Source: Nonlabens xiamenensis
GTDB lineage: Bacteria; Bacteroidota; Bacteroidia; Flavobacteriales; Flavobacteriaceae
Length of the DNA: 64,000 bases
NCBI RefSeq assembly: GCF_003865345.1
Contig: NZ_RMVE01000003.1
Span: 186,001 to 250,000, forward strand
Reading direction: 5' to 3'
Part shown: in pieces, positions 1 to 63,389 of the stretch
How positions within the stretch are numbered: position 1 is the stretch's first letter
Layout of the letters: each line of letters begins with the position of its first letter
Made by a program: the position numbers and the translations under genes
The notes under the pieces: generated by a model
Databases searched by the model: none
Seen by the model: only the letters and a program-made list of their open reading frames with translations
Told to the model about the DNA's origin: nothing

Positions 1-2718
1 TCCATCATCTGGATTAAATCCAAAAGCAGGAGTCAGAATATTAGAATTGATTATACTCTTTTTGGGGTTGTAAAGATTACGGTCATAATCATCAGACAAT
101 CTTATTCTTGCACCTTTGACGTTTTTAAAGGTATTGTCTTTTGTTTTATGATCATAAATAGAAATACCTTTTCCATTTTCTAAATCGTAAATGTCGTTAT
201 TCTGACCACCGATGATACGAATCTTGATACGATTTCTACCGTCACCCATGGCTTGAATAATATCATCATCATCAAGGGCATAAATCCAAATTTCGTCGGT
301 TTCCTCGGCCAAAAAAGTACGCTGGGAAACGATTTCGGCCTTCTCTCCCCCTTTATTCCTGTATATAGTCACCTTGGTTTTCCCGTCAGCTATGCGGTCA
401 ATGATGACAAAATCATCCTTGTCCGTTCCAGTCATGATGCCCAATTGCGCCAAATAATCGTAGTAGCGATCAGCGATATCTACCAATTTGTCCCTACGAG
501 CCTTCATACTAGTGATAATGGTTTGGGTAGTTGGGTGCGGGTAGATTTCTTCAGGCAGCTCTCTGAACGCCTCTTCAATCACTTCATCCGTTAGGTTTTC
601 CTGAATGTGCCGGGCTTGACTGAGCCAAATTTCTCGATCAGCTCCCTGTGCGATACTCCGGTCTAAATAAGCTGCAGCAGTATTGAACCATTTAACATTG
701 TCCAGGTCTTTATCATAGGTAGCAAATTGGTTAGTCAAGCCTACCATGACTCTCAGAGTGGCAAATATGGCTCCATCAAAATTAGAATAGGCCTGATCTC
801 TATCCCTGGGGATTGCTTTGAAGGTACTGTTACCTTCCTCGTCTTTAAATTGGGCCCAGCGCCATTGATCCTGGTGGCGGTCCCAGTCACCGATCAGCAT
901 ATCAAACATACGGGCACGAACGTAAAATGGCTGATCCACCTTGAATCGTTCATCCTCGCGCAATTTGGCAAATAAATCAGATGTTGACTCAATGTCTCCC
1001 GGTTTTCCAAAGCTGGCTAAATCATCATGATTTTCTTCTGGACGTTCTACCAACATGTAGAGTTCGTCACCATAATTCCTATTGTATTGTCCCAGCGCTT
1101 TTTGTTTGGGCAGGTAGTATATTTCTGGGTTGGTATGATAGACCCCAACAGCGTTACTTAATGTAGGTAATGTTGTGAAAGCATAAGGATGAGCAGCGGT
1201 ATAAAAATCAAAAAGCAAATCTTCGGCGGTAGTGTCCTCAAAACCTTCTGCCACATCATTTTCCTTAAACACCGTAGTTTGTAGGAATTGAACCGCACTT
1301 TTTTTCAAGGCCCTGAAATTATATTCCCTGCCTTGTTTATCGGTTACCCTCAATGATCTTGTTTGGTGACCACCACCAGCACGTTCCACAGTGAGACCTC
1401 CTTTCAATGTATCCAGTAAAGCTACTTTGGCGTTGATCTTGGTCCCGTATAAATCTCGGTATTTGGTTCCCCAAACGGATTCAAACACATCTCCCTTCTC
1501 TACTCTTTCTTGGTCGTATACACTCGCTTTCGCGAAAGCGGGATACTCTTCTGGCAAGCTTTCCATATCAAAGGACTCGGGCGTTTCAATCGCTTTGTGG
1601 GTAAATAAAAGTTTTTCTTTTCCTCCCTCAAAACCGTAGTACCGTACCCAACTACTTCCATCTTCCATAACGTCTAAACGTACAAACCCATTTCCTCCGT
1701 AGGAAAACAGACCGTCGTAACTTAAGGAGGCATAGCCTTTTTTAGAACCACTTCCGGAAACGATCTGACGAATTCCGTCATTCTCAATGTACTGTAAAGT
1801 ATGTTCATGACCGCTGGCGAAAATAAGTCTGCTGGCCGTAGAAGCCCGAGCCAGTGCCGTGATGCGATTCACCATCTCCTGATAACGCTTATTTTGCTTA
1901 TCCTGTGCACTTACTCCGCCACTGGTTCTGATCTGGGACACTAGCGAACCGAGAATAGGAACAGGAATACCTTCTTGTGAAGGATACAGATGCTTAACGG
2001 CGGCGTATTGACCTCCATGAATACCATTGGTGTACAACGGGTGATGCAAGGCAAAAACAATGGTTTTGTCCTGATTTTTTTTCAGCTCACCTTCTACTTC
2101 CAGAAAGAACTCTTCCCGGGTTTTTATTTCCTCACAATCATCATTAATGGTGGGGTGCTGGTTCCACTGGGCCAGGTACCACTGACTGTCCACAATTATA
2201 AGTTGAACCCGTTTGGAAAGGTCGATACTTTCTATGGGGCATCCTACTTTAGGCTTCCAGATGTCTTTATCATCCAGCGCTTTTTCAATGTATTCTTTTT
2301 CTCGCTCAACGTTATCCAACCCTTCATCGTACCAGTCGTGATTCCCGGGAATGAAAACCGTGGTACCGTTAAAGATTTTGGCCACTTCAATTTGGGCGTT
2401 GAGATGATTTTCTGCGATTGGTCGATAATCTGAATCTTTTTTAGGCATTCCATTCGGATAGATGTTGTCTCCCAAAAAAATTAAATGATCCTTTTCAGTA
2501 CTTTGGTTTTGCAGATAACTTTCTAGTGCTAATAAACCATCGCTTTTACCACCCATAGGGGATTTACCCACATCACCTATCAAATAAAATGTCTTGAGGA
2601 TTTTCTCCTGATCGGGGAAATCCTTCTGCTCGATACTCTCTTTGTATTGAGGTTTAAAACTGGCACAACCAGCGATAAAGAGGACGAAGAGTAATAAAAG
2701 AATGTTATTTTTATTCAT
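1..2718 (-). CDS. Metallophosphoesterase lipoprotein, C-terminus cut off by window edge
   Basis: The frame is open from the start codon at 2718 to the window edge, giving 906 codons with no stop, so the C-terminus is missing. A lipoprotein signal ends at a Cys in FIAGCAS. Calcineurin-like metallophosphoesterase motifs follow: GDVG, GDNIYP, GNHDWY, HHPLYT and GHEHT. The several hundred residues after the phosphatase domain contain stretches such as RARMFDMLIGDWDRH that resemble long Bacteroidetes metallophosphoesterases. In my recollection of that family a C-terminal outer-membrane barrel can follow, but that part is not visible here. It probably acts at the cell envelope on an unknown phosphoester. 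One iterated palindrome lies in frame and encodes AFAKA near residue 395. The phosphatase call is firm; substrate and C-terminal fold are not. Confidence 0.88.
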   Translation of the reverse strand, partial: MNKNNILLLLFVLFIAGCASFKPQYKESIEQKDFPDQEKILKTFYLIGDVGKSPMGGKSDGLLALESYLQNQSTEKDHLIFLGDNIYPNGMPKKDSDYRPIAENHLNAQIEVAKIFNGTTVFIPGNHDWYDEGLDNVEREKEYIEKALDDKDIWKPKVGCPIESIDLSKRVQLIIVDSQWYLAQWNQHPTINDDCEEIKTREEFFLEVEGELKKNQDKTIVFALHHPLYTNGIHGGQYAAVKHLYPSQEGIPVPILGSLVSQIRTSGGVSAQDKQNKRYQEMVNRITALARASTASRLIFASGHEHTLQYIENDGIRQIVSGSGSKKGYASLSYDGLFSYGGNGFVRLDVMEDGSSWVRYYGFEGGKEKLLFTHKAIETPESFDMESLPEEYPAFAKASVYDQERVEKGDVFESVWGTKYRDLYGTKINAKVALLDTLKGGLTVERAGGGHQTRSLRVTDKQGREYNFRALKKSAVQFLQTTVFKENDVAEGFEDTTAEDLLFDFYTAAHPYAFTTLPTLSNAVGVYHTNPEIYYLPKQKALGQYNRNYGDELYMLVERPEENHDDLASFGKPGDIESTSDLFAKLREDERFKVDQPFYVRARMFDMLIGDWDRHQDQWRWAQFKDEEGNSTFKAIPRDRDQAYSNFDGAIFATLRVMVGLTNQFATYDKDLDNVKWFNTAAAYLDRSIAQGADREIWLSQARHIQENLTDEVIEEAFRELPEEIYPHPTTQTIITSMKARRDKLVDIADRYYDYLAQLGIMTGTDKDDFVIIDRIADGKTKVTIYRNKGGEKAEIVSQRTFLAEETDEIWIYALDDDDIIQAMGDGRNRIKIRIIGGQNNDIYDLENGKGISIYDHKTKDNTFKNVKGARIRLSDDYDRNLYNPKKSIINSNILTPAFGFNPDDG
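1525..1540. repeat. Iterated palindrome copy 1 (perfect)
   Basis: CGCTTTCGCGAAAGCG lies inside the metallophosphoesterase gene and is read as AFAKA on the minus strand. Confidence 0.95.
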
Positions 2719-2736
2719 ATGTAGTTGAATACTTTT

Positions 2737-2744
2737 TATTTTAG
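2737..2744 (+). promoter_or_regulatory. Probable -7 box for the HD-PycTM gene
   Basis: TATTTTAG matches TAnnTTTG at 7 of 8 positions and ends 15 nt before the start codon at 2760. The surrounding 16 bases, TTATTTTAGCAGCAAA, recur upstream of the tlpA-like gene at 6409. Confidence 0.5.
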
Positions 2745-2759
2745 CAGCAAATCAAATAA

Positions 2760-3959
2760 ATGAGCGATATCTATAAAAAAGCTGATGATTTTGTATTAAA
2801 TCTGTTAAAAAACGAGCTTGATGATAAATATGTGTACCATAATTATACACATACAAAGCGTGTTGTTAAAAGTACACAGGAAATCATTGACAATTCTGAA
2901 ATCGATGTTAAAGAGCAAAAGGCGCTGATTTTGGCAGCCTGGCTGCACGATACCGGCTATATTGAAGGTGCGGAAGGACATGAAGAAAAGAGTGCCGAGA
3001 TAGCAGATTCATTCCTATCTGAACAAGGAGAAAATCAGGAATTAATTCAGCTGGTAAAGCAATTAATTTTAGCGACTAAATTCAACGATATACCCAAGGG
3101 AAAATTAGAGGAAATAATCCGAGATGCAGATGCCTCGCATTTTGCCAAAGATTATTATCAGGAGACCAGCGAACTTCTTAAGCAGGAATATAAATTAAGA
3201 GGTAAAGAATATACCAACAAAGAGTGGAGGAATGAAAATATCAAAGTTTTTACTGAAAAGCATCGTTATTACAGTGAGTATGCCATAAAAAACTGGAATA
3301 CGAACAAAAATGAGAACCTGCTCAAGTTGATCAAAAAGAAAAAGAAGAAAAAGAAGAAATATGACAAGGAAAAAATTAAGGTTGATCTAAAGAATCAAAG
3401 TCCAGAACGTGCCATTCAAACCTTGTTCCGTACAACCTTGAGAAACCACATCAAGTTAAGTGATATAGCAGATACCAAAGCGAACATCTTATTATCTGTC
3501 AATGCTATTATTATTTCGCTTGCCTTGGCCAATATAATCCCTAAATTGGATCAACTGTCTAACAGGCATTTGTTATGGCCTACCTTGGTGCTAATTCTCT
3601 TTTCTGTTGCCAGTATTATTTTATCCATCATGTCCACGAGACCTAATGTGACCAGTGGAGAATTCACGGATGAGCAAGTGGAAAAACGCGAAGTCAACCT
3701 TTTGTTCTTCGGAAATTTTCATAAAGTCCCTTTTAAAAGGTACCAAAAAGCTTTAATGGGTTTGATTGATAGCAAAGAAGAAGTCTATGAATCCTTGTTG
3801 AAAGATCTTTGGTTACTGGGGGTAGTCTTGAATAGAAAATATACTTTACTTAGATGGACCTATACCATTTTTATGGTTGGAATCATTACAAGTGTTTTGG
3901 CTTTCGTCATCGCATTTGCAACCACCGACTTTCAACAGATTACAGATGTAATTCCTTAA
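2760..3959 (+). CDS. HD-domain phosphohydrolase fused to a Pycsar-type membrane effector domain (PycTM)
   Basis: The N-terminal half (residues 20-180) is an HD metal-dependent phosphohydrolase: His27, the HD pair at 63-64 in AAWLHDTGY, and an Asp near 122 in IRDADAS. A run of nine lysines (192-200) forms the linker. Residues about 220-390 match the PycTM/DUF5706 type of membrane domain, with the hallmark LSDIADTKANILLSVNA followed by hydrophobic segments at about 243-262, 272-291 and 363-386. In Pycsar defence such domains respond to cyclic nucleotides, and HD domains can degrade nucleotides. No nucleotide cyclase lies next to it, so a defence role is inference. Its last 20 bases overlap the convergent GAF gene. 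Domain calls are confident; function is not. Confidence 0.85.
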   Translation: MSDIYKKADDFVLNLLKNELDDKYVYHNYTHTKRVVKSTQEIIDNSEIDVKEQKALILAAWLHDTGYIEGAEGHEEKSAEIADSFLSEQGENQELIQLVKQLILATKFNDIPKGKLEEIIRDADASHFAKDYYQETSELLKQEYKLRGKEYTNKEWRNENIKVFTEKHRYYSEYAIKNWNTNKNENLLKLIKKKKKKKKKYDKEKIKVDLKNQSPERAIQTLFRTTLRNHIKLSDIADTKANILLSVNAIIISLALANIIPKLDQLSNRHLLWPTLVLILFSVASIILSIMSTRPNVTSGEFTDEQVEKREVNLLFFGNFHKVPFKRYQKALMGLIDSKEEVYESLLKDLWLLGVVLNRKYTLLRWTYTIFMVGIITSVLAFVIAFATTDFQQITDVIP

Positions 3960-6321: not shown

Positions 6322-6325
6322 ACTT

Positions 6326-6333
6326 TAAATATA
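6326..6333 (-). promoter_or_regulatory. -7-like box 4 nt from the start of the GAF gene
   Basis: On the minus strand TATATTTA is followed by AAGT and then the ATG. It matches TAnnTTTG at 7 of 8 positions. The spacing would put transcription start at or next to the start codon. Confidence 0.5.
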
Positions 6334-6409
6334 GGAATTTTCTTCCCTTAGATTTTTGAGCTGACTAGAATTTTGAAAAGTTTAACCCAAAAAAGCAGGC
6401 TAAAACCAT

Positions 6410-6417
6410 TATTTTAG
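6410..6417 (+). promoter_or_regulatory. Probable -7 box for the TlpA-like gene
   Basis: TATTTTAG lies 19 nt before the ATG at 6437, in the same 16-base context as the box at 2737. Confidence 0.45.
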
Positions 6418-6436
6418 CAGCAAAAGTACGTTTTTC

Positions 6437-8275: not shown

Positions 8276-9187
8276 ATGCAAGCCATTGCTTTTTATGCGC
8301 TATATCCCCTACTCTGGGTCCTTTCAAAGCTTCCCTTTTTTGTCGTCTATCGCATCAGCGATTTTTTCTATTTTATTCTTTGGTATATAGTAGGCTACCG
8401 CAAAGAGGTCATTAAGAATAATATACGAACTGCCTTTCCTACATATACAGAGCAACAAGTTCAGCGTACGGCCAAGGATAGCACCAAGCATTTTTGCGAC
8501 ATTTTTATAGAAATGATCAAATCCATGGGTATGAGTAAGAAGTCCATGAGGAAAAGATTTACCTGCAGCAATCCCGAATTGGTCAACGCTTTCGCGAAAG
8601 CGGAAAAACCTATCATCGCCATGTTTGGACATCAGGGAAGTTATGAATGGACCATGGTGTTGGATGAGGTCCTGGATTATCACGTCTATGCGATCTACAA
8701 ACCCCTTAAGAATAAATATTTTGACGCTTTGATCAGGAAGATTCGCAAGAAGTTTGGCAGCTCCATGGTAGCCATGAAACAGGCCACAGCGGTTATGAGC
8801 AAAAAAGTGCAGACAGAGGCAGCTCTCTTTGCCCTAGTGGCCGATCAATCTCCTAAGGCCTCGCGCGCCCAATTCTTTACCAACTTCTTTGATCAACCCA
8901 GCGCTGTATTCAAAGGAGCAGAAAAAATAGCTCGCGAATTTGATTGTGCGGTTGTCTTTTTGAAGATCTCCAAAGTGAAAAGGGGGTATTACTCCACGGA
9001 GTTCGAATTGATTACTGCCGATGGCTCAGCGACGGACGAGTGGTACATCACTGACCAATTTTTTGAGCTGCTTGAAACTCAAATCCGTAAACAACCACAG
9101 TACTATCTTTGGTCCCACAAACGCTGGAAAACCACTTTAGATAACGCTAGACGTGCCGTTGAGCTATCTCCTTCAATTCGCCAATAA
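8276..9187 (+). CDS. Lipid A biosynthesis acyltransferase (LpxL/HtrB family)
   Basis: This 303-residue protein starts with a hydrophobic anchor (LYPLLWVLSKLPFFVVYRI) and shows the family pattern of YRKEVIKNNIRTAFP, GHQGSYEW (in the position of the HxGNWE acyltransferase motif) and VADQSP. It is expected to transfer a secondary acyl chain to lipid A at the inner membrane. An iterated palindrome at 8587 encodes AFAKA at about residues 105-109, just before the catalytic His region. The 3' end overlaps the convergent glmM gene by 41 bp. The family is clear; chain specificity cannot be told. Confidence 0.92.
   Translation: MQAIAFYALYPLLWVLSKLPFFVVYRISDFFYFILWYIVGYRKEVIKNNIRTAFPTYTEQQVQRTAKDSTKHFCDIFIEMIKSMGMSKKSMRKRFTCSNPELVNAFAKAEKPIIAMFGHQGSYEWTMVLDEVLDYHVYAIYKPLKNKYFDALIRKIRKKFGSSMVAMKQATAVMSKKVQTEAALFALVADQSPKASRAQFFTNFFDQPSAVFKGAEKIAREFDCAVVFLKISKVKRGYYSTEFELITADGSATDEWYITDQFFELLETQIRKQPQYYLWSHKRWKTTLDNARRAVELSPSIRQ
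8587..8602. repeat. Iterated palindrome copy 2 (perfect)
   Basis: CGCTTTCGCGAAAGCG lies in frame in the acyltransferase gene and is read as AFAKA. Confidence 0.95.
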
Positions 9188-12612: not shown

Positions 12613-13620
12613 TCAGAAAGATCTTAAAATTTTATTCATTTGACGATGGAGACCCTCATCATAGTCTAAATGAGTGACTAACCTCAATTTCCCCTGCCCC
12701 ATATTACTGATAATAACCTGGTTGCTTTCCATATATTCCATGACCGCAGCTTCATCCTTTACTTCAAAAATCACGATGTTGGTTTCTACGGGCTCCACTT
12801 TTTCCACCCAAGAACAGCCTGCAAGAACTTCGGCCAGTTCAATAGCTCTCTGATGATCATCTTGAAGTCTTTCTATGTGATGGTCTAGTGCATACAATGC
12901 TGCGGCAGCAACATAGCCTACTTGACGCATCCCGCCGCCCAAGACCTTACGCACGCGCATTGCTTTATCCATCAATTCTTTTTTTCCGGTCAATACGGTA
13001 CCCAATGGCGCACCCATCCCTTTACTAAAGCAAACGGAAATGGTATCAAACATTCTTCCATATTCTTTTGGATCCTGACCTGTGGCTACTAAGGCATTCC
13101 ATAATCTGGCTCCATCCAGATGATATCCCAGTCCGTGCTTTTTACATACCGCATGAATTTCCTTGAGGTCCTCGATGGCATAACAGGCACCACCTCCTTT
13201 ATTTGTAGTATTCTCTACACACACCAAACTAGTCAGCGGACTATGATAAAAGTCGTGTGGGTTGATAGCTGCTTCAACTTGTGCTGCCGTAATCATTCCC
13301 CTATTCCCGTCCAGTAATTTGCAGGACACCCCACTATTAAAGGACACTCCCCCACCTTCATAATTATAGACATGGGCATATTTATCACAAATCAACTGTT
13401 CGCCTGGTTGGGTATGCATTTTAATAGCAGCTTGATTGGCCATACTCCCGGTAGGAAAAAACAGGGCTTCATCTGTACCAAAAAAATCAGCTACCCGGGC
13501 TTCTAATTCATTAACCGTCGGGTCCTCCTTATATACATCGTCGCCTACTTCTGCGCTGAACATTGCTTTCAACATGCCTTTGGTAGGTTTGGTTACGGTG
13601 TCACTACGTAGATCTATCAT
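12613..13620 (-). CDS. ltaE: Low-specificity L-threonine aldolase
   Basis: The 335-residue fold-type I PLP enzyme starts with MIDLRSDTVTKPT, typical of threonine aldolases. The PLP lysine is Lys200 in CFSKGMGAPLGT, and Asp169 in YHLDGARLWNA should contact the PLP nitrogen. It cleaves L-threonine or allo-threonine to glycine and acetaldehyde. It is divergent from prfB across a 168-bp region that holds an iterated palindrome. Confidence 0.94.
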   Translation of the reverse strand: MIDLRSDTVTKPTKGMLKAMFSAEVGDDVYKEDPTVNELEARVADFFGTDEALFFPTGSMANQAAIKMHTQPGEQLICDKYAHVYNYEGGGVSFNSGVSCKLLDGNRGMITAAQVEAAINPHDFYHSPLTSLVCVENTTNKGGGACYAIEDLKEIHAVCKKHGLGYHLDGARLWNALVATGQDPKEYGRMFDTISVCFSKGMGAPLGTVLTGKKELMDKAMRVRKVLGGGMRQVGYVAAAALYALDHHIERLQDDHQRAIELAEVLAGCSWVEKVEPVETNIVIFEVKDEAAVMEYMESNQVIISNMGQGKLRLVTHLDYDEGLHRQMNKILRSF

Positions 13621-13653: not shown

Positions 13654-13669
13654 CGCTTTCGCGAAAGCG
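13654..13669. repeat. Iterated palindrome copy 3 (perfect, intergenic)
   Basis: CGCTTTCGCGAAAGCG lies between the divergent ltaE and prfB starts, 92 bp before the prfB -7 box. Confidence 0.95.
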
Positions 13670-13788: not shown

Positions 13789-14895
13789 ATGATAACTGCA
13801 GACCAGGTCAAAGAATTACAGGAACGCGTCAAACAGCTCAAGGATTATCTACAGATCGAGGCCAAAAAAATCGAGATTACCAATCTTGAAGAGAAAACTT
13901 TTGCCCCAGATTTCTGGAATACTCCCAAGGACGCAGAAGTCGTAATGAAGCAGTTAAGAAATAAAAAACAATGGACCATTGATTATGATACAGCGGTGAC
14001 CCTTGTGGAAGACCTTGAGGTCCTCTACGAATTTTACAAGGAAGATGAAGCTACCGAGGGAGATGTGACAGCAAAATTCCAAGCGGCTACCGATTTGATC
14101 GAGAAACTTGAGTTTAAAAACATGTTATCCAATGAAGGAGATGACATGAGTGCCGTGCTACAGATTACTGCCGGAGCTGGTGGTACGGAATCCTGCGACT
14201 GGGCTGAAATCCTGATGAGGATGTATATGATGTGGGCCGAAAAAAGCGGTTTCAAGGTGAAGGAACTCAACTTTCAGCCTGGAGACGTGGCTGGAATAAA
14301 GACCGTTACTTTAGAGATTGATGGAGATTATAGTTTTGGCTGGCTCAAAGGAGAGAATGGCGTCCATCGATTGGTCCGAATTTCCCCTTTCGATTCCAAT
14401 GCCAAAAGACATACCAGTTTTGCTTCGGTCTATGTTTATCCGCTCGCCGATGATTCTATCGAAATCGACATTAATCCAGCTGATATTTCCTGGGATTTTG
14501 CTCGCTCAAGTGGGGCTGGTGGTCAAAACGTGAATAAAGTGGAAACCAAAGCTATACTCACCCACCATCCTTCTGGTATCGTCATCCATAATTCTGAAAC
14601 GCGCTCGCAATTGGAAAACCGAGAGAAAGCAATGCAGATGTTGAAGTCCCAACTCTTTGAAATTGAATTGCAAAAACGCAATGCCGCCAGGGATGAAATT
14701 GAGGCCGGCAAGATGAAGATTGAATGGGGTTCACAAATTCGCAACTATGTACTACATCCGTATAAACTGATTAAAGATGTACGTACCGGGCACGAGACAG
14801 GGAATACGGATGCAGTACTGGATGGTGATCTGGATGCCTTTCTCAAAGCCTTTTTGATGGAACAAGGACAGGAAAAGCCCAGTGACCAGCTTTAA
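13789..14895 (+). CDS. prfB: Peptide chain release factor 2, without programmed frameshift
   Basis: The 368-residue class I release factor has the SPF tripeptide (RISPFDSNAKR) that makes RF2 read UGA and UAA, and the GGQ loop (SSGAGGQNVNKVET) that triggers peptide release. Many bacterial prfB genes carry an in-frame UGA near codon 26 for autoregulatory +1 frameshifting. Here the matching place reads TAT CTA CAG (YLQ) and the frame is continuous, so that control is absent. It has its own promoter. Confidence 0.96.
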   Translation: MITADQVKELQERVKQLKDYLQIEAKKIEITNLEEKTFAPDFWNTPKDAEVVMKQLRNKKQWTIDYDTAVTLVEDLEVLYEFYKEDEATEGDVTAKFQAATDLIEKLEFKNMLSNEGDDMSAVLQITAGAGGTESCDWAEILMRMYMMWAEKSGFKVKELNFQPGDVAGIKTVTLEIDGDYSFGWLKGENGVHRLVRISPFDSNAKRHTSFASVYVYPLADDSIEIDINPADISWDFARSSGAGGQNVNKVETKAILTHHPSGIVIHNSETRSQLENREKAMQMLKSQLFEIELQKRNAARDEIEAGKMKIEWGSQIRNYVLHPYKLIKDVRTGHETGNTDAVLDGDLDAFLKAFLMEQGQEKPSDQL

Positions 14896-18503: not shown

Positions 18504-18519
18504 CGCTTTCGCGAAAGCG
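18504..18519. repeat. Iterated palindrome copy 4 (perfect, intergenic)
   Basis: CGCTTTCGCGAAAGCG lies in the divergent region before fumC, 54 bp before its -7 box. Confidence 0.95.
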
Positions 18520-24472: not shown

Positions 24473-25104
24473 TTGCAATCGCCATAGCCGACGATCACCT
24501 TGCCTTAAGTGAAGGCCTCGAATTATTTATTAACCAGCAAGATAGCATGCGTGTGTTATTTAAGGTAACCAACGGTAAGGAATTGCTCCACCAACTGGAA
24601 CAATCCCTACCTGATGTAGTACTGACCGATATCAACATGCCAGAAATCAACGGTGTTGAACTTTGTCGCCGCATAAAGACCGAAAAACCCCATATCAAAG
24701 TCATTGCCTTGAGTATGTTTGACAACCAGGGTGCCATTGACGATATGTCTGCAGCAGGCGCAGATGGATATGTTTTAAAAAGCAGCCCCTTGATCCAACT
24801 TAAACAAGCCATTTTGGAGGTCTGTGCAGGTCAATCCTATTTTGATCCTCAATTGGAATTTGAACTGAAGGAAATACGTACATTTAAGGAGCAAAAAAAC
24901 ATTCTTTCCCGCAGTGAAAGAGACATATTGGTTGCCATTGCCAAAGGCAAGACCAGTCAGGAGATTGCGGCAGATCGTGGTACAGCGGTCAGTACCGTTA
25001 ATAAACACAGAAAGAATATCATTAATAAATTGGGCCTGCAAGGCAAAAAAGAATTGATGGAATATGCCTTGGAACGCCACGGCCACACTAACTCCAACTC
25101 ATGA
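24469..25104 (+). CDS. LuxR/NarL-type response regulator
   Basis: The 211-residue protein has a receiver domain with the acidic pair in IADDH, phospho-acceptor Asp54 in VLTDINMP and the conserved Lys in GYVLKSS. It ends in a LuxR-type HTH (LSRSERDILVAIAKGKTSQEIA, TVNKHRKNIINKLG). It overlaps the kinase gene upstream and the esterase gene downstream by 4 bp each, so the three are translationally coupled. Its targets are unknown. Confidence 0.95.
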   Translation: MIAIAIADDHLALSEGLELFINQQDSMRVLFKVTNGKELLHQLEQSLPDVVLTDINMPEINGVELCRRIKTEKPHIKVIALSMFDNQGAIDDMSAAGADGYVLKSSPLIQLKQAILEVCAGQSYFDPQLEFELKEIRTFKEQKNILSRSERDILVAIAKGKTSQEIAADRGTAVSTVNKHRKNIINKLGLQGKKELMEYALERHGHTNSNS

Positions 25105-26039
25105 AGCATTTCCTCCTTCTTTTTCTATTCTTATGTGTTTTCAGCAGTTGCCAAAACAAGGCAAATAACAACAACACTTCTGAAGATTACTCTATCACAG
25201 TCTCTCCTGATGCGATACAACCAATTGCGCAGGATAGTATTGCCTACTTTGATGATTTTCCATCCGAATATGTGGACCAAAGAAATGTGGAGGTATGGCT
25301 TCCCAAAGGCTATCCGCAACCTAATCTGGACTACAAAGTGTTGTATATACACGATGGTCAAAATGTGCTCAATGCCAAAACAAGTTATACGGGAATCGCC
25401 TGGGAAGTAGATGAAAAACTGGATTCCTTGCTTCAAAAAAATGCAGTTGAGCCCACCATCGTCGTTGCGATTTGGAACAATGGTAAGAAAAGATTCAATG
25501 AATACATGCCCAAGTTTCCCGCTGAGGTTACGGAGTCCGCTTTCGCGAAAGCGGAATTAAAGCAATACTCAGGGTTTGACCGCTTGTACAGTGATGAATA
25601 CCTCAAATTTCTAACCCAAGAATTAAGGCCTTTTATCAATGACAATTTCCAGGTCTCAGAGAAAGCAGCAGATACAGCAATCATGGGAGCTTCAATGGGA
25701 GCACATATTTCACTGTATGCGATGATGAAATACCCAGACATATTTGGTAGGGCAGGATGTTTCAGTACACATTGGCCTATTCCAGAGTTAGGAGCGCCTT
25801 TTATGGAAGCTCTTCCAGCGGCCATCCCATCAGCAGAAACACATAAAATTTATTTTGATCACGGCACCAAGACACTGGACAAAGTATATGAACCTTACCA
25901 ACTAGAAGTCAATCAGATGTTTGCTAGAAAGGGATATGATTCCACCCGATTGATGTACCGAAAATTTGTAGGTCATGAACACAGTGAGAAATACTGGAAA
26001 CAACGCGTGCAACATGCCTTGGTTTTTCTCTTACAATAA
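25101..26039 (+). CDS. Esterase-family alpha/beta hydrolase lipoprotein
   Basis: The 312-residue protein has a lipobox (CVFSSCQN) and a putative-esterase (Esterase D/Fes-like) fold: YIHDGQNVL, nucleophile Ser198 in MGASMGAH, a likely acid in FDHGTKTLD and the base His in VGHEHSEKYW. The leaving group is unknown; Fes-like enzymes include siderophore and xylan esterases. A palindrome at 25538 encodes SAFAKAE at residues 146-152 in a variable stretch. It is coupled to a two-component system, which suggests it is a target or accessory of that signal. Confidence 0.88.
   Translation: MKHFLLLFLFLCVFSSCQNKANNNNTSEDYSITVSPDAIQPIAQDSIAYFDDFPSEYVDQRNVEVWLPKGYPQPNLDYKVLYIHDGQNVLNAKTSYTGIAWEVDEKLDSLLQKNAVEPTIVVAIWNNGKKRFNEYMPKFPAEVTESAFAKAELKQYSGFDRLYSDEYLKFLTQELRPFINDNFQVSEKAADTAIMGASMGAHISLYAMMKYPDIFGRAGCFSTHWPIPELGAPFMEALPAAIPSAETHKIYFDHGTKTLDKVYEPYQLEVNQMFARKGYDSTRLMYRKFVGHEHSEKYWKQRVQHALVFLLQ
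25538..25553. repeat. Iterated palindrome copy 5 (perfect; 28-base identity with copy 6)
   Basis: The core is CGCTTTCGCGAAAGCG in frame as AFAKA. Bases 25533-25560 are identical to 30799-30826 in the btuD-like gene. Confidence 0.95.
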
Positions 26040-29728: not shown

Positions 29729-30736
29729 TTGAAGTCAGCACGAATTCTTTTACTGGTTTTACTTCTCTTGCTACTTTTTGTGGCTGATCTCTGTTTAGGT
29801 ACGGTGCAGATTCCTCTGGCTGATTTTTGGAACATTCTGTCTGGTCAGGCAAATGAAGTGGATGCCTCTACCCGATTCATCATCACGCAATTGAGGCTGC
29901 CACGAGCGATCATGGCCATTCTTACTGGCGCTGGTTTATCCATGGCTGGTTTACTGATGCAAACCCTTTTTAGGAACCCACTGGCTGGTCCTTTTGTTTT
30001 AGGTATTTCCAGCGGAGCCGGACTGGGTGTTGCTTTGGTCATCATGGGTGCTGGAATGATAGGTTTATCCAGTCTATCGGAAACCGGTATTATCGCTGCC
30101 AGCATTTTTGGTAGTTTAGGGGTGCTTATTTTAATTCTTCTTATTTCGGTTCGCATAAAGGATACGATGGGATTATTAATTATAGGTTTGATGATGGGAA
30201 GTTTGAGTAGTGCTATAGTGGGGATTCTTAGTTATTTCAGCAGTAGTGAGCAATTGAAGCGATATGTTTTTTGGTCCCTGGGAAGTCTTGGAGGTATGCA
30301 ATGGACTGAAATAGCCATATTAGCTGGAATAAGCATCATTGGATTAGGCTTGATTTTGTTGATTATTAAACCACTAAACGCACTATTACTGGGTGAATCC
30401 TATGCTTTGAGCCTAGGAATCAATTTAAAGCGTACCCGATGGATGATCATCCTGATCACAAGTTTGCTGGCGGGAGGAATAACAGCCTTTGCCGGTCCCA
30501 TTGCCTTTATTGGTTTAGCAGTACCACATTTATCCCGCTTGCTATTACCGACGGTAGACCACCGTATGTTAATACCCACAGCCTTGTTGATGGGTGCTTG
30601 TCTTTTGTTGGTCTGTGATTTGGTCAGTCAGTTGCCATTGACCAATTACTCTTTGCCCATCAATGCGGTAACCTCTCTATTAGGTGCTCCAGTGGTCATC
30701 TGGCTCATCATGAAAAAAAGAAACCTTCATTTCTAA
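29729..30736 (+). CDS. btuC: ABC transporter permease, FecCD/BtuC family
   Basis: The 335-residue protein has about ten hydrophobic segments. Family signatures are RLPRAIMAILTGAGLSMAGLLMQ (over two motifs), NPLAGPFVLGISSGAGLG and FAGPIAFIGLAVPHLSRLL. It begins with TTG, since no ATG precedes the first membrane segment. It should form the inner-membrane channel for the ligand brought by the upstream binding protein. Its stop overlaps the ATG of the ATPase gene by one base. Confidence 0.9.
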   Translation: MKSARILLLVLLLLLLFVADLCLGTVQIPLADFWNILSGQANEVDASTRFIITQLRLPRAIMAILTGAGLSMAGLLMQTLFRNPLAGPFVLGISSGAGLGVALVIMGAGMIGLSSLSETGIIAASIFGSLGVLILILLISVRIKDTMGLLIIGLMMGSLSSAIVGILSYFSSSEQLKRYVFWSLGSLGGMQWTEIAILAGISIIGLGLILLIIKPLNALLLGESYALSLGINLKRTRWMIILITSLLAGGITAFAGPIAFIGLAVPHLSRLLLPTVDHRMLIPTALLMGACLLLVCDLVSQLPLTNYSLPINAVTSLLGAPVVIWLIMKKRNLHF

Positions 30737-31497
30737 TGCTGACGATTGATAACATTCAGGTAGGTTACGGTTCTTGTGTGGTGGCAAGACATGAAGGTGA
30801 GTCCGCTTTCGCGAAAGCGGAATTAACTGCGATATTGGGAACCAACGGAGCGGGAAAATCCACCCTATTGAGATCTTTACATAATGGCAGCCATTTATTG
30901 AACGGAAATATAAGGCTGGAAGGTCTGGACATCAATAATTGGAATCCCACTGAAAGGTCTAGAAAGATTGCCGTTGTTTTAACTGAACGGCACTTCTCCT
31001 ACTTTCTAAAGGTGCGTGAGCTGCTAGAGTTAAGCCGGTCGCCCTACACTAATTTTTTGGGAAAGCTACAACCGCTGGATCACGAGCGCATTCATGCGGT
31101 GATGCAAAGTTTTGATCTGGAGTCCCTGTTTGACCGCCGATTGGGAACCTTGAGCGACGGACAATTACAGCGTGTTTTGATTGCTCGGGCGATGGTGCAG
31201 GATACAGAGTATTTATTGATGGACGAGCCTACCAGTCATCTGGACATCAACCACAAAGCGGATTTAATGTTTGAACTGCGGGAATATTGTCATGAAACAG
31301 GTCGAAGCATGATTTATGCCTCCCATGAAATACAGCTGGCCCTTGCCTTATCCGATAAAATCTTGACAATACATCAAGGACAGATCGATTTCTTTGAGCG
31401 CAAAGAATTGACAGCATCCGAAAAGTTGGAAAAAATGTTTCCTTCAGATTACCTGGCATTTCAGCGCGGTGATATCAAATTTAATTTCCCGAAATAA
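30736..31497 (+). CDS. btuD: ABC transporter ATPase, BtuD/FecE family
   Basis: The 253-residue protein has Walker A (GTNGAGKST, residues 35-43), a Q-loop region, the signature LSDGQ, Walker B (YLLMDEPTS) and a switch His (YASHEI). It energises import through the upstream permease. An iterated palindrome encodes ESAFAKAEL (residues 22-30) exactly in the poorly conserved stretch before Walker A, where length is close to normal. That shows the palindrome replaces rather than breaks sequence. Confidence 0.92.
   Translation: MLTIDNIQVGYGSCVVARHEGESAFAKAELTAILGTNGAGKSTLLRSLHNGSHLLNGNIRLEGLDINNWNPTERSRKIAVVLTERHFSYFLKVRELLELSRSPYTNFLGKLQPLDHERIHAVMQSFDLESLFDRRLGTLSDGQLQRVLIARAMVQDTEYLLMDEPTSHLDINHKADLMFELREYCHETGRSMIYASHEIQLALALSDKILTIHQGQIDFFERKELTASEKLEKMFPSDYLAFQRGDIKFNFPK
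30804..30819. repeat. Iterated palindrome copy 6 (perfect; 28-base identity with copy 5)
   Basis: The copy is in frame as AFAKA in the btuD-like gene. The identity with copy 5 covers 30799-30826. Confidence 0.95.
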
Positions 31498-38877: not shown

Positions 38878-38893
38878 CTCTTTCGCGAAAGCG
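38878..38893. repeat. Iterated palindrome copy 7 (one mismatch, intergenic)
   Basis: CTCTTTCGCGAAAGCG differs at one base from the consensus. It lies 15 bp upstream of a TATTTTTA box (38909-38916) that precedes uvrB. Confidence 0.85.
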
Positions 38894-44427: not shown

Positions 44428-44730
44428 TCTTTGAAATAATTTTTCTTGATTGACTTCAATGATGATTGTAGCGCTTTCGCGAAAGCAGAATTTCACCACA
44501 AAGCTCAATGCCTGTTTAGTAATCGCAAATAGTCTTTACGCAGGAGAAATAAATGAAATAATAATTCTCAACTCGAGAGTTCAATGAGCCTGTAAGTCCA
44601 ATTTTCATTCAATTACTGCGCCAGCACATACGAGTATGCGCGACAAATCAATACCTGTATACCTATCTGCACATTCCAATAGGATCGAGTTTCAATCATC
44701 AATCCCTATCAATTCTGATTATTACAAAAA
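44428..44730. other. Intergenic stretch with one palindrome, otherwise empty
   Basis: Apart from the iterated palindrome copy at 44472 I see no gene, RNA or promoter with a clear match. The terminator of the S8 protease gene follows. Confidence 0.6.
44472..44487. repeat. Iterated palindrome copy 8 (one mismatch, intergenic)
   Basis: CGCTTTCGCGAAAGCA is followed by GAATT, similar to the right flank GGAATT of copies 5 and 6. Confidence 0.9.
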
Positions 44731-48966: not shown

Positions 48967-48982
48967 CGCTTTCGCGAAAGCC
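48967..48982. repeat. Iterated palindrome copy 9 (one mismatch, intergenic)
   Basis: CGCTTTCGCGAAAGCC lies between the divergent csbD and barrel-protein genes, 4 bp from the csbD -7-like box. Confidence 0.9.
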
Positions 48983-49870: not shown

Positions 49871-50389
49871 TTGAAATTATACCAATTTTCTTCCCAACAA
49901 AATCTTCCTATTTCTGTTCCCGAAGCCTGGGAATTCCTTACTGATGCACGCAATTTAAAATTGCTTACTCCAGACGAATTAGAAATGGAGATTCAATATG
50001 GAACAGAGCGTGGGATGTATCCGGGCCAATTAATAGAATATAGCGTCAAGCCTCTACCCTTCTATCGCACCCATTGGGTCACTCATATCACCCAAGTAGA
50101 AAAAGAGCGTTTTTTTGTGGACGAACAAATGTATGGTCCCTACGCCACCTGGCACCACAAACATTTTATCAGCGCTATTCCTGGTGGAACACTCATGGAA
50201 GATTTGATCCACTATCGCTTACCTTTTGGGTGGTTGGGGAAATTGGGCGCTCCCATGGTCAGGAAAAAACTGGAAGAGATTTTTCGCTTTCGCGAAAGCG
50301 CACTCATACGCCATTTTGGGCAATTTCATGAATCTGATGCCGATACAAAACCTCAGGCATCGCATCTTAAACACGAAATTTTACAATAA
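49871..50389 (+). CDS. SRPBCC-family ligand-binding protein
   Basis: The 172-residue protein has a START/Bet v1-like fold: LPISVPEAWEFLTDARNLKLLTP at the N-terminus, a central strand set and the C-terminal helix LEEIFRFRESALIRHFG. The start is TTG (MKLYQF). The palindrome at 50285 encodes RFRES inside that C-terminal helix, where homologues usually have a similar R/Y-rich stretch. It heads a three-gene operon with an SDR enzyme and a photolyase; this neighbourhood is common in flavobacteria as I recall. The ligand is unknown. Confidence 0.82.
   Translation: MKLYQFSSQQNLPISVPEAWEFLTDARNLKLLTPDELEMEIQYGTERGMYPGQLIEYSVKPLPFYRTHWVTHITQVEKERFFVDEQMYGPYATWHHKHFISAIPGGTLMEDLIHYRLPFGWLGKLGAPMVRKKLEEIFRFRESALIRHFGQFHESDADTKPQASHLKHEILQ
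50285..50300. repeat. Iterated palindrome copy 10 (perfect)
   Basis: CGCTTTCGCGAAAGCG is in frame as RFRES in the SRPBCC gene. Confidence 0.95.
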
Positions 50390-56579: not shown

Positions 56580-56584
56580 CTCAT

Positions 56585-58786: not shown

Positions 58787-58790
58787 AATT

Positions 58791-59255: not shown

Positions 59256-59257
59256 CA

Positions 59258-60529
59258 ATGGCAGTAGATTTATTGCTCGGCCTTCAATGGGGCGATGAGG
59301 GAAAAGGTAAAATCGTTGACGTGCTTACCTCTAATTATGACATCATCGCAAGATTTCAGGGAGGGCCTAATGCAGGACACACTTTGGAATTTGATGGTAT
59401 TAAACACGTCCTGCGTACCATTCCTTCGGGTATCTTTCATGATCAGGCGGTTAATTTAATCGGTAATGGTGTAGTTATAGATCCAGTAGTATTTGTCCAG
59501 GAATTGGATGGTTTGGATCAATTTGATATAGATTACAAAAAGAAGTTGATTATTTCGCGTAAAGCGCACATCATACTTCCTACCCACAGGTTATTGGATG
59601 CAGCTTCTGAGACGTCAAAAGGAAAGGCCAAAATTGGATCTACGCTTAAAGGCATCGGACCTACTTATATGGATAAAACAGGTCGCAACGGTATTCGTAT
59701 CGGCGATTTGGAAATGGGAACCTGGAAAACCAAATACAGAAATCTGGCCAATAAACACGAGGAATTGATCAAATTCCACGATGTAGATATTCAATACAAC
59801 CTTCCCGAGATGGAAGAAGAGTTCTTCAAAGCGATCGATAGATTAAAAGAGCTTAGCTTCATAGATTCTGAGGAGTATCTACAACAAGCCCAAAAGAATG
59901 GAAAAAGTATTTTGGCAGAAGGGGCACAAGGATCATTACTTGATATAGATTTTGGAACTTATCCTTTTGTCACCTCTTCTAACACTACTGCTGCAGGAGC
60001 ATGCACTGGACTGGGAGTTTCACCCAGACAAATTGGTGAAGTTTACGGGATTTTTAAAGCTTACACTACACGTGTGGGTAGCGGACCTTTCCCCACCGAA
60101 CTCTTTAATGAAATAGGTGCCAAAATGGCCAAAGTAGGTCACGAATTTGGTGCAGTGACCGGAAGGCCGAGACGCTGCGGGTGGTTGGACCTGGTTGCGT
60201 TAAAATACACATGCCAAATCAATGGCGTGACTCAACTGATGATGATGAAAGGTGATGTTCTTTCTGGATTTGATAAGCTAAAGGTTTGTACCGCCTACAA
60301 ATACAAGGGTGAGAAAATTACTCACTTACCCTACAATATAGAGCCAGAGAACTTAACCCCTTTATACGCCGAATTTGATTGCTGGGAAGAAGACTTAACT
60401 GCAATGACCACGGCCTCAAAATTCCCGAAAGAGTTGAATGAATATATAGAGTTCTTGGAGAAAGAACTGGAGATTCCCATCAAAATTGTAAGTGTAGGAC
60501 CTGACCGCACCCAGACGATCCATCGCTAA
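59258..60529 (+). CDS. purA: Adenylosuccinate synthetase
   Basis: The 423-residue enzyme has the GTP-binding start GLQWGDEGKGKIVD, GGPNAGHT, the catalytic His in the same loop, GSTLKGIGPTYMDK and GRPRRCGW. It converts IMP and aspartate to adenylosuccinate with GTP. The ATG follows the fur stop by 2 bp. The end GPDRTQTIHR is standard. Confidence 0.97.
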   Translation: MAVDLLLGLQWGDEGKGKIVDVLTSNYDIIARFQGGPNAGHTLEFDGIKHVLRTIPSGIFHDQAVNLIGNGVVIDPVVFVQELDGLDQFDIDYKKKLIISRKAHIILPTHRLLDAASETSKGKAKIGSTLKGIGPTYMDKTGRNGIRIGDLEMGTWKTKYRNLANKHEELIKFHDVDIQYNLPEMEEEFFKAIDRLKELSFIDSEEYLQQAQKNGKSILAEGAQGSLLDIDFGTYPFVTSSNTTAAGACTGLGVSPRQIGEVYGIFKAYTTRVGSGPFPTELFNEIGAKMAKVGHEFGAVTGRPRRCGWLDLVALKYTCQINGVTQLMMMKGDVLSGFDKLKVCTAYKYKGEKITHLPYNIEPENLTPLYAEFDCWEEDLTAMTTASKFPKELNEYIEFLEKELEIPIKIVSVGPDRTQTIHR

Positions 60530-60643
60530 ATATAAATTCACCACCCATAGCTGTCAGCTTACCGATCTAAAAAGTAATGAGCTGTCGCGGTGTAAAGGTT
60601 GATTAACATCTCAAGATTTTACCTCCAATTCAACGACTGAATT

Positions 60644-61603
60644 ATGGCGCTCAAAAAGTATCTCAATATTTGTTTCAAAGGAATTCTTATGGGTGCAGCC
60701 GATGTTGTACCGGGAGTTTCTGGCGGAACGATTGCATTTATCACGGGTATTTATGAAGAATTGATCAAAGCCATTGATGGATTAGGTCCAGAAGTGCTGC
60801 GGGATTTTTTCAAATTAGGCGTAAAAAATACGTTTGTAAAATATAACCTTAGCTTCCTGCTCTCATTGGCATCAGGTATTCTGATAAGCATACTCAGTTT
60901 ATCCAAATTGATTACGTACTTGTTGCAGACAGCACCCGTACTGCTTTGGGCTTTCTTTTTTGGGTTGGTACTGGCCAGTGTTTGGTATATAGGCAAACAA
61001 ATTACGCGATGGAATTATTTGGTCATCATTGCCATACTTATCGGCTCTATTGCTTCCTATTACATTACAATCGCAGAGCCTCTGGGAAGTCCTGACAGCT
61101 GGTGGTACATCATCTTTTCTGGTTTTATTGCCATCATTGCCATGATATTACCTGGTGTCTCTGGTGCATTTTTGCTATTGCTGTTGGGTAGTTATGAAAG
61201 CGTTCTGGGCGCCGTAAGCGGACTGGTAGAAGCGGTGGCTGCTGGCGATTGGAATAAGGCTTGGGAATCTCTGGGAACGATCCTGTTATTTGCCGTGGGA
61301 TGTGTGGTAGGGCTTAAAGTGTTTTCGCGAATACTTACCTGGTTGTTTGAGCATTACAAAAATGTGACCCTGGGTTTGCTTACCGGGTTTATGATAGGTT
61401 CGTTAAATAAGCTGTGGCCTTGGAAAGAAGTGTTGGTATATCGCACCAATAGTCACGGTGAAGAAATACCATTTTTGGAACGCAGTATCCTGGCATCGGA
61501 TTTTGATGGAGACCCTCAAATTTTATGGGTCGTCCTGCTATCAATCAGCGGTTTTTTACTTATACTTATGTTAGAAAAATGGGCCAGTAAAAAACAATCA
61601 TAA
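60644..61603 (+). CDS. DUF368 polyprenyl-phosphate transporter family protein (PopT-like), copy 1
   Basis: The 319-residue membrane protein has the two family signatures: GAADVVPGVSGGTIAFITGIYEE near the N-terminus (two motifs) and MILPGVSGAFLLLLLGSYE in the middle, with about eight hydrophobic segments. DUF368 members have been reported as undecaprenyl-phosphate transporters (PopT) that return the lipid carrier across the membrane for wall synthesis. A single TAA separates it, in the same frame, from a second DUF368 gene. Confidence 0.9.
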   Translation: MALKKYLNICFKGILMGAADVVPGVSGGTIAFITGIYEELIKAIDGLGPEVLRDFFKLGVKNTFVKYNLSFLLSLASGILISILSLSKLITYLLQTAPVLLWAFFFGLVLASVWYIGKQITRWNYLVIIAILIGSIASYYITIAEPLGSPDSWWYIIFSGFIAIIAMILPGVSGAFLLLLLGSYESVLGAVSGLVEAVAAGDWNKAWESLGTILLFAVGCVVGLKVFSRILTWLFEHYKNVTLGLLTGFMIGSLNKLWPWKEVLVYRTNSHGEEIPFLERSILASDFDGDPQILWVVLLSISGFLLILMLEKWASKKQS

Positions 61604-62623
61604 TTGCGTCAAGCCACCAGAACATTCAGCGACAAATTCTTTCTCGTTCTTAAGGGAATCGCTATGGGTACCGCAAATAAGGTTCCTGGAATTAGCGGTG
61701 GCGTGGTGGCTTATGTAGCTGGATTTTACGAAGAATTCATCTACTCCTTACAAAAGCTCAACCTCAAGGCGCTCAAACTTCTGGTCAACGGTAGATTCAG
61801 GGTGTTTTTTGAATATATCAACGGGCGTTTTTTGTCCCTGTTAATCTTGGGAGAAACATTGAGTTATTTTACCGTCAGCATAGGCTTTGATGTACTAATC
61901 AGGTTTTATCCCATCCTTGTTTGGGCCTTGTTCTTTGGGATGATCCTGGGATCGATCTACTATATCTCCCGTAGTTATGGGGAATGGACCAGGCGCAATT
62001 TATTTTTGCTGGTTACAGGCGTGTTGGTAGGTGTAGGCACTTCCCTACTCGACCCTGCGACGCAAAATGAAAACTTGATGTTTGTGTTTTTTTGCGGGAT
62101 GGTCAGTATCTCAGGTATGACCTTACCAGGATTAAGTGGAAGTTTTATATTGATTCTTTTAGGCAATTACGTGCTTTTAATGGTAGATAGCATTAATGCT
62201 TTTTTTGATACCATGGTATGGATTGTACAAGGTGATTTTTCCTGGTGGAATGATACAGCGAATATGGATATGTTGCTTATTCTCATCGTTTTTGTGCTGG
62301 GATCAATAACAGGTCTGATCAGTTTATCACACTTGTTGGGCTGGACCATCAAACATTATCGCAATGAGACCAATGCCGTCATTATAGGTTTTATAACCGG
62401 TTCGTTGGGTGTAGTTTGGCCCTGGAAAAAGGAGGTTTTTAAAAAAACACTGGATGGAAGTATCAGCGTGGATGCCTCAGGAGCTCCTATTCTTGAAAAT
62501 TACAGCCGTTACTGGCCAGAAATTACAGATACCCACACTTGGATAGCCGTGGTCATGATTACCATAGGTTTTGCCAGTGTATATATTTTAGATCGTTATG
62601 GAAACAAAGCAAATCCCGTCTAG
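61604..62623 (+). CDS. DUF368 polyprenyl-phosphate transporter family protein (PopT-like), copy 2
   Basis: The 339-residue paralogue has the same signatures (GTANKVPGISGGVVAYVAGFYEE, read as two motifs; MTLPGLSGSFILILLGNYV). Its first usable codon is TTG at 61604, directly after the TAA of copy 1 and in the same frame. The next ATG would remove the first conserved segment. Translation by re-initiation at TTG or by stop-codon readthrough are both possible. Its 3' end overlaps aroE by 26 bp. Members may act as a heteromeric pair; that is inference. Confidence 0.88.
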   Translation: MRQATRTFSDKFFLVLKGIAMGTANKVPGISGGVVAYVAGFYEEFIYSLQKLNLKALKLLVNGRFRVFFEYINGRFLSLLILGETLSYFTVSIGFDVLIRFYPILVWALFFGMILGSIYYISRSYGEWTRRNLFLLVTGVLVGVGTSLLDPATQNENLMFVFFCGMVSISGMTLPGLSGSFILILLGNYVLLMVDSINAFFDTMVWIVQGDFSWWNDTANMDMLLILIVFVLGSITGLISLSHLLGWTIKHYRNETNAVIIGFITGSLGVVWPWKKEVFKKTLDGSISVDASGAPILENYSRYWPEITDTHTWIAVVMITIGFASVYILDRYGNKANPV

Positions 62624-63389
62624 TATATTCGGTCTGGTAGGCAAGCGTTTGGACTATAGTTTTTCGCGAGCCTACTTCTCAGAGAAATTTGAAAAACTTA
62701 AGCTGACTGACCATGAGTACCGCAATTTTGAAATGGATCGAGAATATTTGTTAAGCCGCTTTCGCGAAAGCGTGACCTACGACCCTCAAACCCGTACAAC
62801 AAACGGAAAGTCTGAAATTATCAGAGGGCTCAACGTTACTATTCCCTACAAAGAGGACATGTTGAAGGTGGTCGATCATATCAGCGAGGAAGCCAAAGCC
62901 ATCGGTGCCATCAATACAGTGGTCATCGAGGATAATATCTGGACCGGACACAACACGGATTGCTATGGTTTTGCCAAAAGCCTAGAAAATTTACCTCCTA
63001 TTCAGAAAAATGCACTCATTCTGGGAACAGGAGGAGCCTCTAAAGCAATTGCCTATACCCTAGAAGCCTTACAGATACCCTACCTTTTTGTGAGCAGGAA
63101 TCCGCAGGATGAATACATTATAAGTTACACCGCTTTAAACAAGGAGGTAATGCAGAGTGTAGGATTGATCGTTAACACAACGCCGCTTGGTGTGACGCCA
63201 GAGGTACATTTACGTCCAGAAATCCCTTATGAATGTTTAAATGAATCCCATCTGTTATACGATCTCGTGTACAATCCAGCCCAAACCATGTTCATGAAAT
63301 TGGGACAGCGACATGGTGCCCAAGTGACCAATGGATACCAAATGCTTGTGCATCAAGCAGAAAAAGCCTGGGAACTTTGGAACAACTAA
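62598..63389 (+). CDS. aroE: Shikimate dehydrogenase
   Basis: The 263-residue protein has a substrate site (DYSFSRAYFSEKF, NVTIPYKEDM with catalytic Lys), TDCYGF, the NADP loop LGTGGASKAIAYTLE, NTTPLG, and the end NGYQMLVHQAEKAWELW. It reduces 3-dehydroshikimate in aromatic synthesis. The palindrome at 62757 encodes RFRES at about residues 54-58. The stretch from there to IRGLNVT (about 20 residues) appears longer than the usual AroE loop. The start at 62598 overlaps the upstream gene. Confidence 0.94.
   Translation: METKQIPSSIFGLVGKRLDYSFSRAYFSEKFEKLKLTDHEYRNFEMDREYLLSRFRESVTYDPQTRTTNGKSEIIRGLNVTIPYKEDMLKVVDHISEEAKAIGAINTVVIEDNIWTGHNTDCYGFAKSLENLPPIQKNALILGTGGASKAIAYTLEALQIPYLFVSRNPQDEYIISYTALNKEVMQSVGLIVNTTPLGVTPEVHLRPEIPYECLNESHLLYDLVYNPAQTMFMKLGQRHGAQVTNGYQMLVHQAEKAWELWNN
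62757..62772. repeat. Iterated palindrome copy 11 (perfect)
   Basis: CGCTTTCGCGAAAGCG is in frame as RFRES within aroE. Confidence 0.95.

Follow-up and report, generated by a model that had tools for sequence, protein, structure and literature searches.

The 64,000-nucleotide stretch of Nonlabens xiamenensis analysed here (contig NZ_RMVE01000003.1, positions 186,001 to 250,000; hereafter the window) carries eleven copies of a 16-bp palindrome which recurs throughout the genome and throughout the genus. The motif has a strict core and biased flanks, is conserved in place, is more evenly spaced than random and is abundant in a few marine flavobacterial lineages. By analogy with the uptake signal sequence (USS) of Pasteurellaceae and the DNA uptake sequence (DUS) of Neisseriaceae, it may work as an uptake or self-recognition sequence, a reading that we tentatively favour over that of a site for a chromosome-organising protein. 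A reading made earlier from the sequence alone (the sequence-only reading) knew of no assigned function. Likewise, no functional account was found in the searched open-licence literature, from which the 16-mer and 14-mer strings are absent (an earlier description elsewhere is possible) and in which no iterated palindromes or uptake sequences of flavobacteria or of these genera are reported. The 10-bp inner part of the motif, TTTCGCGAAA, is listed together with palindromes in one paper on words missing from genomes and in another on honeybees.

Abundance and lineage distribution

The eleven positions and mismatch states given by the sequence-only reading are exact, i.e., eight perfect copies and three with one mismatch; no further copy appears at two mismatches. 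The number expected from 100 dinucleotide shuffles of the window is 0. The complete genome (3,684,258 bases) has the perfect 16-mer 422 times and its 14-mer core, GCTTTCGCGAAAGC, 553 times, the reversed control giving 0 in both cases. All 23 Nonlabens genomes searched contain 288-857 14-mers each. Counts close to expectation and copies confined to this region, the two outcomes that the sequence-only reading had named as refuting, are both absent since the motif is abundant genome-wide and genus-wide.

Among 397 genomes sampled from the family, 80 have any 14-mer. Six of them are rich: the window genome and three further Nonlabens, G512 (857 copies) and G496 (408 copies). The remaining 391 have 0-19. 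Among 296 genomes sampled from the phylum, the 16-mer is found in nine and exceeds two copies in the window genome alone. The three named Dokdonia loci are all motif-rich; of the other named loci that are not from Nonlabens, 75 in number, one (L114, Leeuwenhoekiella) has a single 14-mer. The GlmM protein of the window genome matches that of N. antarcticus at 82%, that of N. tegetincola at 77% and all others at 74% or less (best 80 named sequences kept). In the GlmM tree, G512 falls with the named Dokdonia and adjoins Leeuwenhoekiella, while Nonlabens and G496 are placed elsewhere; the Leeuwenhoekiella genome G454, near Dokdonia in this tree, is motif-poor (9 copies). The motif-rich lineages (Nonlabens, Dokdonia and G496) look separate, a point that a tree of one gene, with 21 of 71 inner branches open, cannot settle.

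In the 75 named loci outside Nonlabens and Dokdonia (mostly 21 kb, a size that rarer motifs escape), no mixed-base 12-mer palindrome occurs in more than two copies. Three side observations belong here: (i) L141 contains non-palindromic 12-mers present 4-5 times; (ii) L098, a Dokdonia metagenome-assembled genome, carries twice in 21 kb a related palindrome, CTTTTGCAAAAG, which is the motif with two symmetrically placed bases changed; (iii) G356 (genus g179) has 31 matches to TTTCGCGAAAGC (14 forward, 17 reverse) on many contigs and only six palindromic 14-mers. G356 is regarded as a decayed or incipient case of the motif.

Strictness of the core

The Nonlabens site is nearly all-or-none. Across 464 kb of the window genome, 59 copies of the 16-mer are perfect and 21 have a single mismatch, which falls on the outermost base in 16; two mismatches are seen in 4 copies and three mismatches in 3. 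In Nonlabens DNA totalling 1.21 Mb, 204 perfect 16-mers stand against 69 with one mismatch, 51 of these at the outermost base; 273 of the 280 occurrences of TTCGCGAA lie within TTTCGCGAAA, and 262 of those 273 are flanked by GC on both sides. Outside the full site, TCGCGA, TTCGCGAA and CGAAAGC are near background in Nonlabens, the abundance of TCGCGA and CGAAAGC being about equal to that in other genera. Dokdonia is looser, with 96, 34, 30 and 34 copies having 0, 1, 2 and 3 mismatches, respectively. A large excess of perfect over one-mismatch copies is thus found in Nonlabens, less clearly in Dokdonia, and not for the 16-mer in G496.

The sequence-only reading had likened the motif to the cyanobacterial highly iterated palindrome HIP1. 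The parallel stands as regards an iterated palindrome whose one-base deviations are mostly outer, as reported for HIP1 (PMC4390886). HIP1 is 8 bp long and contains methyltransferase targets (PMC4390886), and by analogy an orphan DNA methyltransferase with linked repair could make or keep the sequence studied here. This is improbable: the sub-motifs show no enrichment of their own in Nonlabens, and a C5-methyltransferase is absent from four of the eight motif-rich genomes (adenine and N4 types were outside the search). A methylation origin is weakened by these results, the link to a methyltransferase is not supported for the C5 type, and the C5-methyltransferase was rejected as a candidate. A term search of PMC4390886 yields no flavobacteria.

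Conservation and origin of sites

Segments of six Nonlabens genomes (identity to the window genome about 70%) were aligned pairwise. The full 14-mer is kept at 76 of 93 sites vs. 241 of 9768 random 14-mers. These 93 comparisons are directed pairs of six genomes and are not independent; the G310/G302 pair supplies 30 of them (26 conserved), and without it 50 of 63 sites are kept. Eight of the eleven window sites can be aligned to at least one of seven relatives, with the core kept in 19 of 20 comparisons.

The origin of one site can be followed in a gene. The perfect 16-mer at 8587..8602 lies in the lipid A acyltransferase gene (8276..9187), is read as AFAKA and is kept in N. antarcticus and N. 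tegetincola. Among 80 named loci, 71 can be aligned here: these two Nonlabens have AFAKA and the other 69, three Dokdonia included, have different residues, gap-free in 55 and gapped in 14. Without Dokdonia, 52 of the 66 loci of other genera are gap-free and 14 gapped. A site of the Dokdonia gene, suspected by distance alone, is not there in the alignment. Since the other genera are mostly gap-free at this position, an origin by substitution and not by insertion is indicated; in this one gene, substitution gave rise to the site, which has persisted since.

Spacing and position on the chromosome

In the window, the spacing is more even than random, as the sequence-only reading had stated (coefficient of variation, CV, 0.45; P 0.011); one-sided sites, described below, were counted in this and in the other spacing tests. 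The same holds for eight of eight stretches (P 0.018 or less). In 400 kb of contig C5, the CV is 0.53 vs. 0.98 for random placement (0 of 4000 simulations as low), the largest gap is 12.9 kb vs. a random median of 26.7 kb, and one gap is under 1 kb vs. 10.5 expected. The largest gap is shorter than random (P <0.05) in five of the eight stretches; the window (P 0.27), G313 and G306 are the other three. The largest gap of the window genome contains, by eye, transposase- and integrase-like open reading frames (ORFs), and the next two gaps housekeeping-like ones.

On the chromosomes of G310 and G496, a site is present in each of 43 sampled 20-kb stretches, with a variance lower than the mean. No confinement to the origin or terminus of replication is seen in these stretches, origin and terminus being unlocated and a small site-free zone being possible. 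Along the G496 contig, 476 12-mers are forward and 482 reverse (replichores were not defined). Site count and GC content in 5-kb bins are weakly correlated (Spearman 0.38 for the window genome, 0.20 for G512).

The number of sites in genes, with gene calls from a simple home-made ORF scorer, is 55 of 75 in the window genome (67.5 expected from the coding fraction), 65 of 111 in G512 (100.5) and 48 of 59 in G496 (50.4). The depletion is clear in the first two and slight in G496. All three frames are used, AFAKA being the commonest reading in the three genomes, and the distances from sites to gene starts or stops are widely variable.

The spacing is accounted for equally well by a serious rival, which we place on the unlikely side: an abundant chromosome-organising protein (nucleoid, domain or segregation) that would need one site every few kb, in a complex covering about 50 bp. 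Few short gaps, no very long ones in the longest stretches, sites along the whole of the two sampled chromosomes and conservation in place all suit such a protein. The near absence of intermediates in Nonlabens does not, intermediates being more frequent in Dokdonia and G496. Should the reader prove to be such a protein, the motif would amount to a code that orders the chromosome, with a rule for spacing.

Flanking sequences and one-sided sites

The flanks are weakly specified. For about 18 bp, the 5' flank is depleted in C, and the 3' flank correspondingly in G; at -3, -4, -7, -10 and -13, T is preferred. The bias is also present in a set of 66 intergenic sites (Nonlabens and Dokdonia), which are free of codon effects. 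Left and right flanks vary largely independently, with little pairing covariation beyond the core (z -1.7 to 2.9 over 25 positions, uncorrected; highest at -1, -18 and -8). This speaks against an RNA or cruciform stem, and a hairpin was rejected for this reason; double-stranded DNA seems to be read instead. For two-sided sites, flanks of this length to the left and right are also what the chromosome-organising protein would leave.

One-sided sites were analysed in Dokdonia and G496, on 249 TTTCGCGAAA sites that have enough flank and are bordered by GC on one side or both. GC is found on one side only in 63, of which 42 are from Dokdonia, about a quarter of its sites, and 21 from G496. In the one-sided sites of Dokdonia, outward G amounts to 9.5% on the GC side vs. 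16.3% on the other side (P 4e-4). Because these Dokdonia sites have their tail on one side, the palindrome may be read as two overlapping directional units. It must be added that several Dokdonia one-sided sites come directly after another short repeat (around CTTCGACTACGCTCAG or CCCGAAATAAATTCGGG), similar by eye to repetitive extragenic palindromic (REP) elements.

A copied element, small and mobile or REP-like, would explain the identical cores, these trailing positions and the 28 identical bases common to two window sites. The flanks are otherwise unrelated beyond composition, and the acyltransferase gene, the sole gene tested, is mostly gap-free at the site; such an element is the least probable of the explanations considered.

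Sites of the window

Copies had been placed both within and between genes. Both kinds exist, and the corrected tally is 6 of 11 in ORFs and 5 of 11 between them. Besides the acyltransferase site, five perfect 16-mers are intragenic. That at 1525..1540 falls within a minus-strand ORF (1..2718, metallophosphoesterase-like by eye) which continues past the left edge of the window; it is read as AFAKA and has an aligned copy in N. antarcticus and N. tegetincola. The AFAKA frame is also used at 25538..25553 in an esterase ORF (25101..26039), where the 14-mer core is kept in G310 and G302, and at 30804..30819 in an ABC transporter ATPase ORF (30736..31497), where the site is kept in G310 and G306. 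The RFRES frame is used at 50285..50300 in ORF 49871..50389 (polyketide cyclase-like, below the Pfam cut-off), kept in N. antarcticus and G306, and at 62757..62772 in a shikimate dehydrogenase ORF (62598..63389), unalignable in the relatives tried.

Two perfect 16-mers are intergenic: 13654..13669, between a beta-eliminating lyase ORF (12613..13620) and a divergent peptide release factor ORF (13789..14895), is unalignable in the relatives tried, and 18504..18519, about 80 bp upstream of a fumarase ORF (18599), is kept in N. tegetincola. Two copies with an outer-base mismatch lie at 44472..44487, between convergent ORFs (unalignable in the relatives tried), and at 48967..48982, between divergent ORFs (14-mer core kept in three of four aligned relatives).

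The third one-mismatch copy (38878..38893) is immediately upstream of uvrB (38923). Loci with the uvrB start were obtained from 22 of the 23 Nonlabens genomes (not G309). The perfect 14-mer is upstream of the gene in 21 of the 22, i.e., in the Nonlabens other than the window genome, which has a one-base variant; it is at -42 to -44 in 20 loci and at -81 in one (L237 was placed by arithmetic). In six uvrB loci of other genera, the 14-mer is found upstream in Dokdonia G512 only, at -104. This constancy is what a regulatory operator, for instance of uvrB, would give. Most sites are intragenic by the home-made scorer, in all three frames and at variable distances from starts and stops, which makes an operator very improbable; a promoter reading, resting on uvrB, does not generalise.

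Phages and mobile DNA

No site is present, even at two mismatches, in the 35.7 kb of each of two related Nonlabens phages that lack an annotated integrase. Four phage contigs contain 3-6 sites each. In three of the four, portal, terminase, capsid, sheath, tape-measure or integrase genes are recognised (PHROGs); the fourth was judged by eye. These contigs belong to 41 viral stretches that were found through the motif itself, and are thus a biased sample. The IMG/VR contig 3300040781_000495 (L051, L068, L071) has six perfect 16-mers within 28 kb of its 37 kb, partly in portal-like and terminase genes.

Phage-borne sites, one contig having an integrase gene, are compatible with the chromosome-organising protein. 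They would also suit a self-marker that lets a defence system spare resident DNA and that some phages have acquired, as would the separate placement of Nonlabens, Dokdonia and G496 in the GlmM tree. With the two Nonlabens phages site-free, such a marker seems slightly less probable still than the HIP1-like origin.

In several motif-poor genera, the few copies are clustered in a metal-efflux island (CusA/CopA-like by eye) at loci L174, L175, L181, L182 and L184, the genomes having a total of only 4-8 copies. In three loci, two sites are 933 bp apart within a 405-residue TolC-like ORF; in the others, the site is in a Fur-like ORF (by eye). These copies are comparable to the peregrine DUS of Neisseriaceae (PMC3630211). 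Whichever reading holds, gene flow from motif-rich lineages into others can be traced by the motif.

A possible uptake or self-recognition sequence

The strong core, the tail, the spacing, the genic and intergenic sites, the origin by substitution and the persistence match traits of USS and DUS, and for this reason uptake is favoured. Of the options listed by the sequence-only reading, an uptake-type signal fits best, a segregation or nucleoid protein being retained as the rival. The site-free Nonlabens phages and the island copies of motif-poor genera argue for uptake as well. In USS and DUS, (i) so strong a consensus is a puzzling attribute, unlike regulatory sites (Redfield et al. 2006, PMC1626085); (ii) spacing is more regular than random, with a preference for non-coding DNA and many coding copies; (iii) single sites are stable for very long, and USS have 3' AT-rich motifs (PMC1626085).

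Under this reading, a surface or periplasmic receptor would read a 13-bp unit, TTTCGCGAAAGCG, and the roughly 18 bp that follow it 3', an A-rich and G-poor tail. Two units would overlap head to head, sharing the 10-bp TTTCGCGAAA, which would yield the palindrome and make recognition independent of orientation. DNA bearing a site would be preferentially taken up and recombined, so that perfect sites would spread; they would be kept between genes and where proteins tolerate AFAKA, RFRES or LSRK. A second site per fragment would add little, leading to an even spacing of several kb. The full proposal, i.e., a self-specific uptake sequence of Bacteroidota with a 13-bp directional core, an A-rich tail, a head-to-head palindrome, an uptake machine that lacks a type IV pilus and three separate flavobacterial lineages, is regarded as possible, with a little less confidence than uptake or self-recognition in general.

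In Riemerella columbina, assigned by the authors to the family, transformation is competed by the species' own DNA but not by as much DNA of R. anatipestifer or E. coli, and no convincing motif was identified (PMC7965970). Some of the essential genes of R. anatipestifer are unlike known machinery (PMC8459023). According to PMC1626085, Pasteurellaceae and Neisseriaceae were, in 2006, the only families known to have uptake sequences.

Several results weigh against uptake. Sites are found once in about 3.3-6 kb, which is not close to once per kb. G496 is less strict for the 16-mer, with 22, 29 (24 outer), 30 and 19 copies having 0-3 mismatches. The one-sided tail is not significant in G496 (outward G 17.8% on the GC side vs. 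21.0% on the other, P 0.36), and once repeat-associated sites are removed, P for the pooled data goes up to 0.03. Copies in phage contigs are not obviously predicted by uptake. No competence is shown for Nonlabens or Dokdonia, and the pilus/type II secretion ATPase PF00437 is above cut-off in one of eight motif-rich genomes (other pilus parts were not searched). DUF5689, a domain of one R. anatipestifer competence protein (a likeness by domain), is present in 8 of 8 motif-rich and also in 13 of 14 motif-poor genomes; its tree, of a fast-evolving and poorly aligned protein, does not unite the motif-rich lineages and sets Nonlabens G302 apart from five other Nonlabens. The DUF5689 protein was rejected as specificity factor on both counts.

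The single PF00437 case is a strong match in the window genome (G000:C12:16568-17587). For the chromosome-organising protein, one ParB match in each of six motif-rich genomes searched means no Noc-like paralogue, and this candidate was rejected. No reader, for either explanation, was found among the ParB, C5-methyltransferase, PF00437 and DUF5689 candidates examined. If uptake is true, a pilus-independent signal of this type in Bacteroidota would shed light on the evolution of such signals, and a 50-bp bait for the flavobacterial uptake receptor would be at hand.

Comparison with known systems

The sites parS, matS and that bound by Noc are likewise strict palindromes, about as long as this one and bound by dimeric proteins. 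The present motif differs by its hundreds of copies chromosome-wide and by the lack of a ParB paralogue. Motifs of the class of Chi and of the FtsK-orienting polar sequences (KOPS) are directional and biased to one strand of each replichore. The two-sided sites studied here are palindromic.

USS of Haemophilus influenzae and other Pasteurellaceae are alike in the strong core, the AT-rich 3' flank, the regular spacing, the coding and non-coding copies, the stability of single sites and the origin by mutation (PMC1626085). They differ in that the motif here is a palindromic double unit, spaced by 3-6 kb vs. about 1 kb, in another phylum and without a shared pilus ATPase. DUS of Neisseriaceae are alike as a lineage-conserved self-tag, with permissive positions, inverted pairs and stray copies elsewhere (PMC3630211). 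They differ in having no flanking motif (PMC1626085) and in their inverted pairs, which do not overlap save in one named arrangement (PMC3630211), whereas the units proposed here would share 10 bp.

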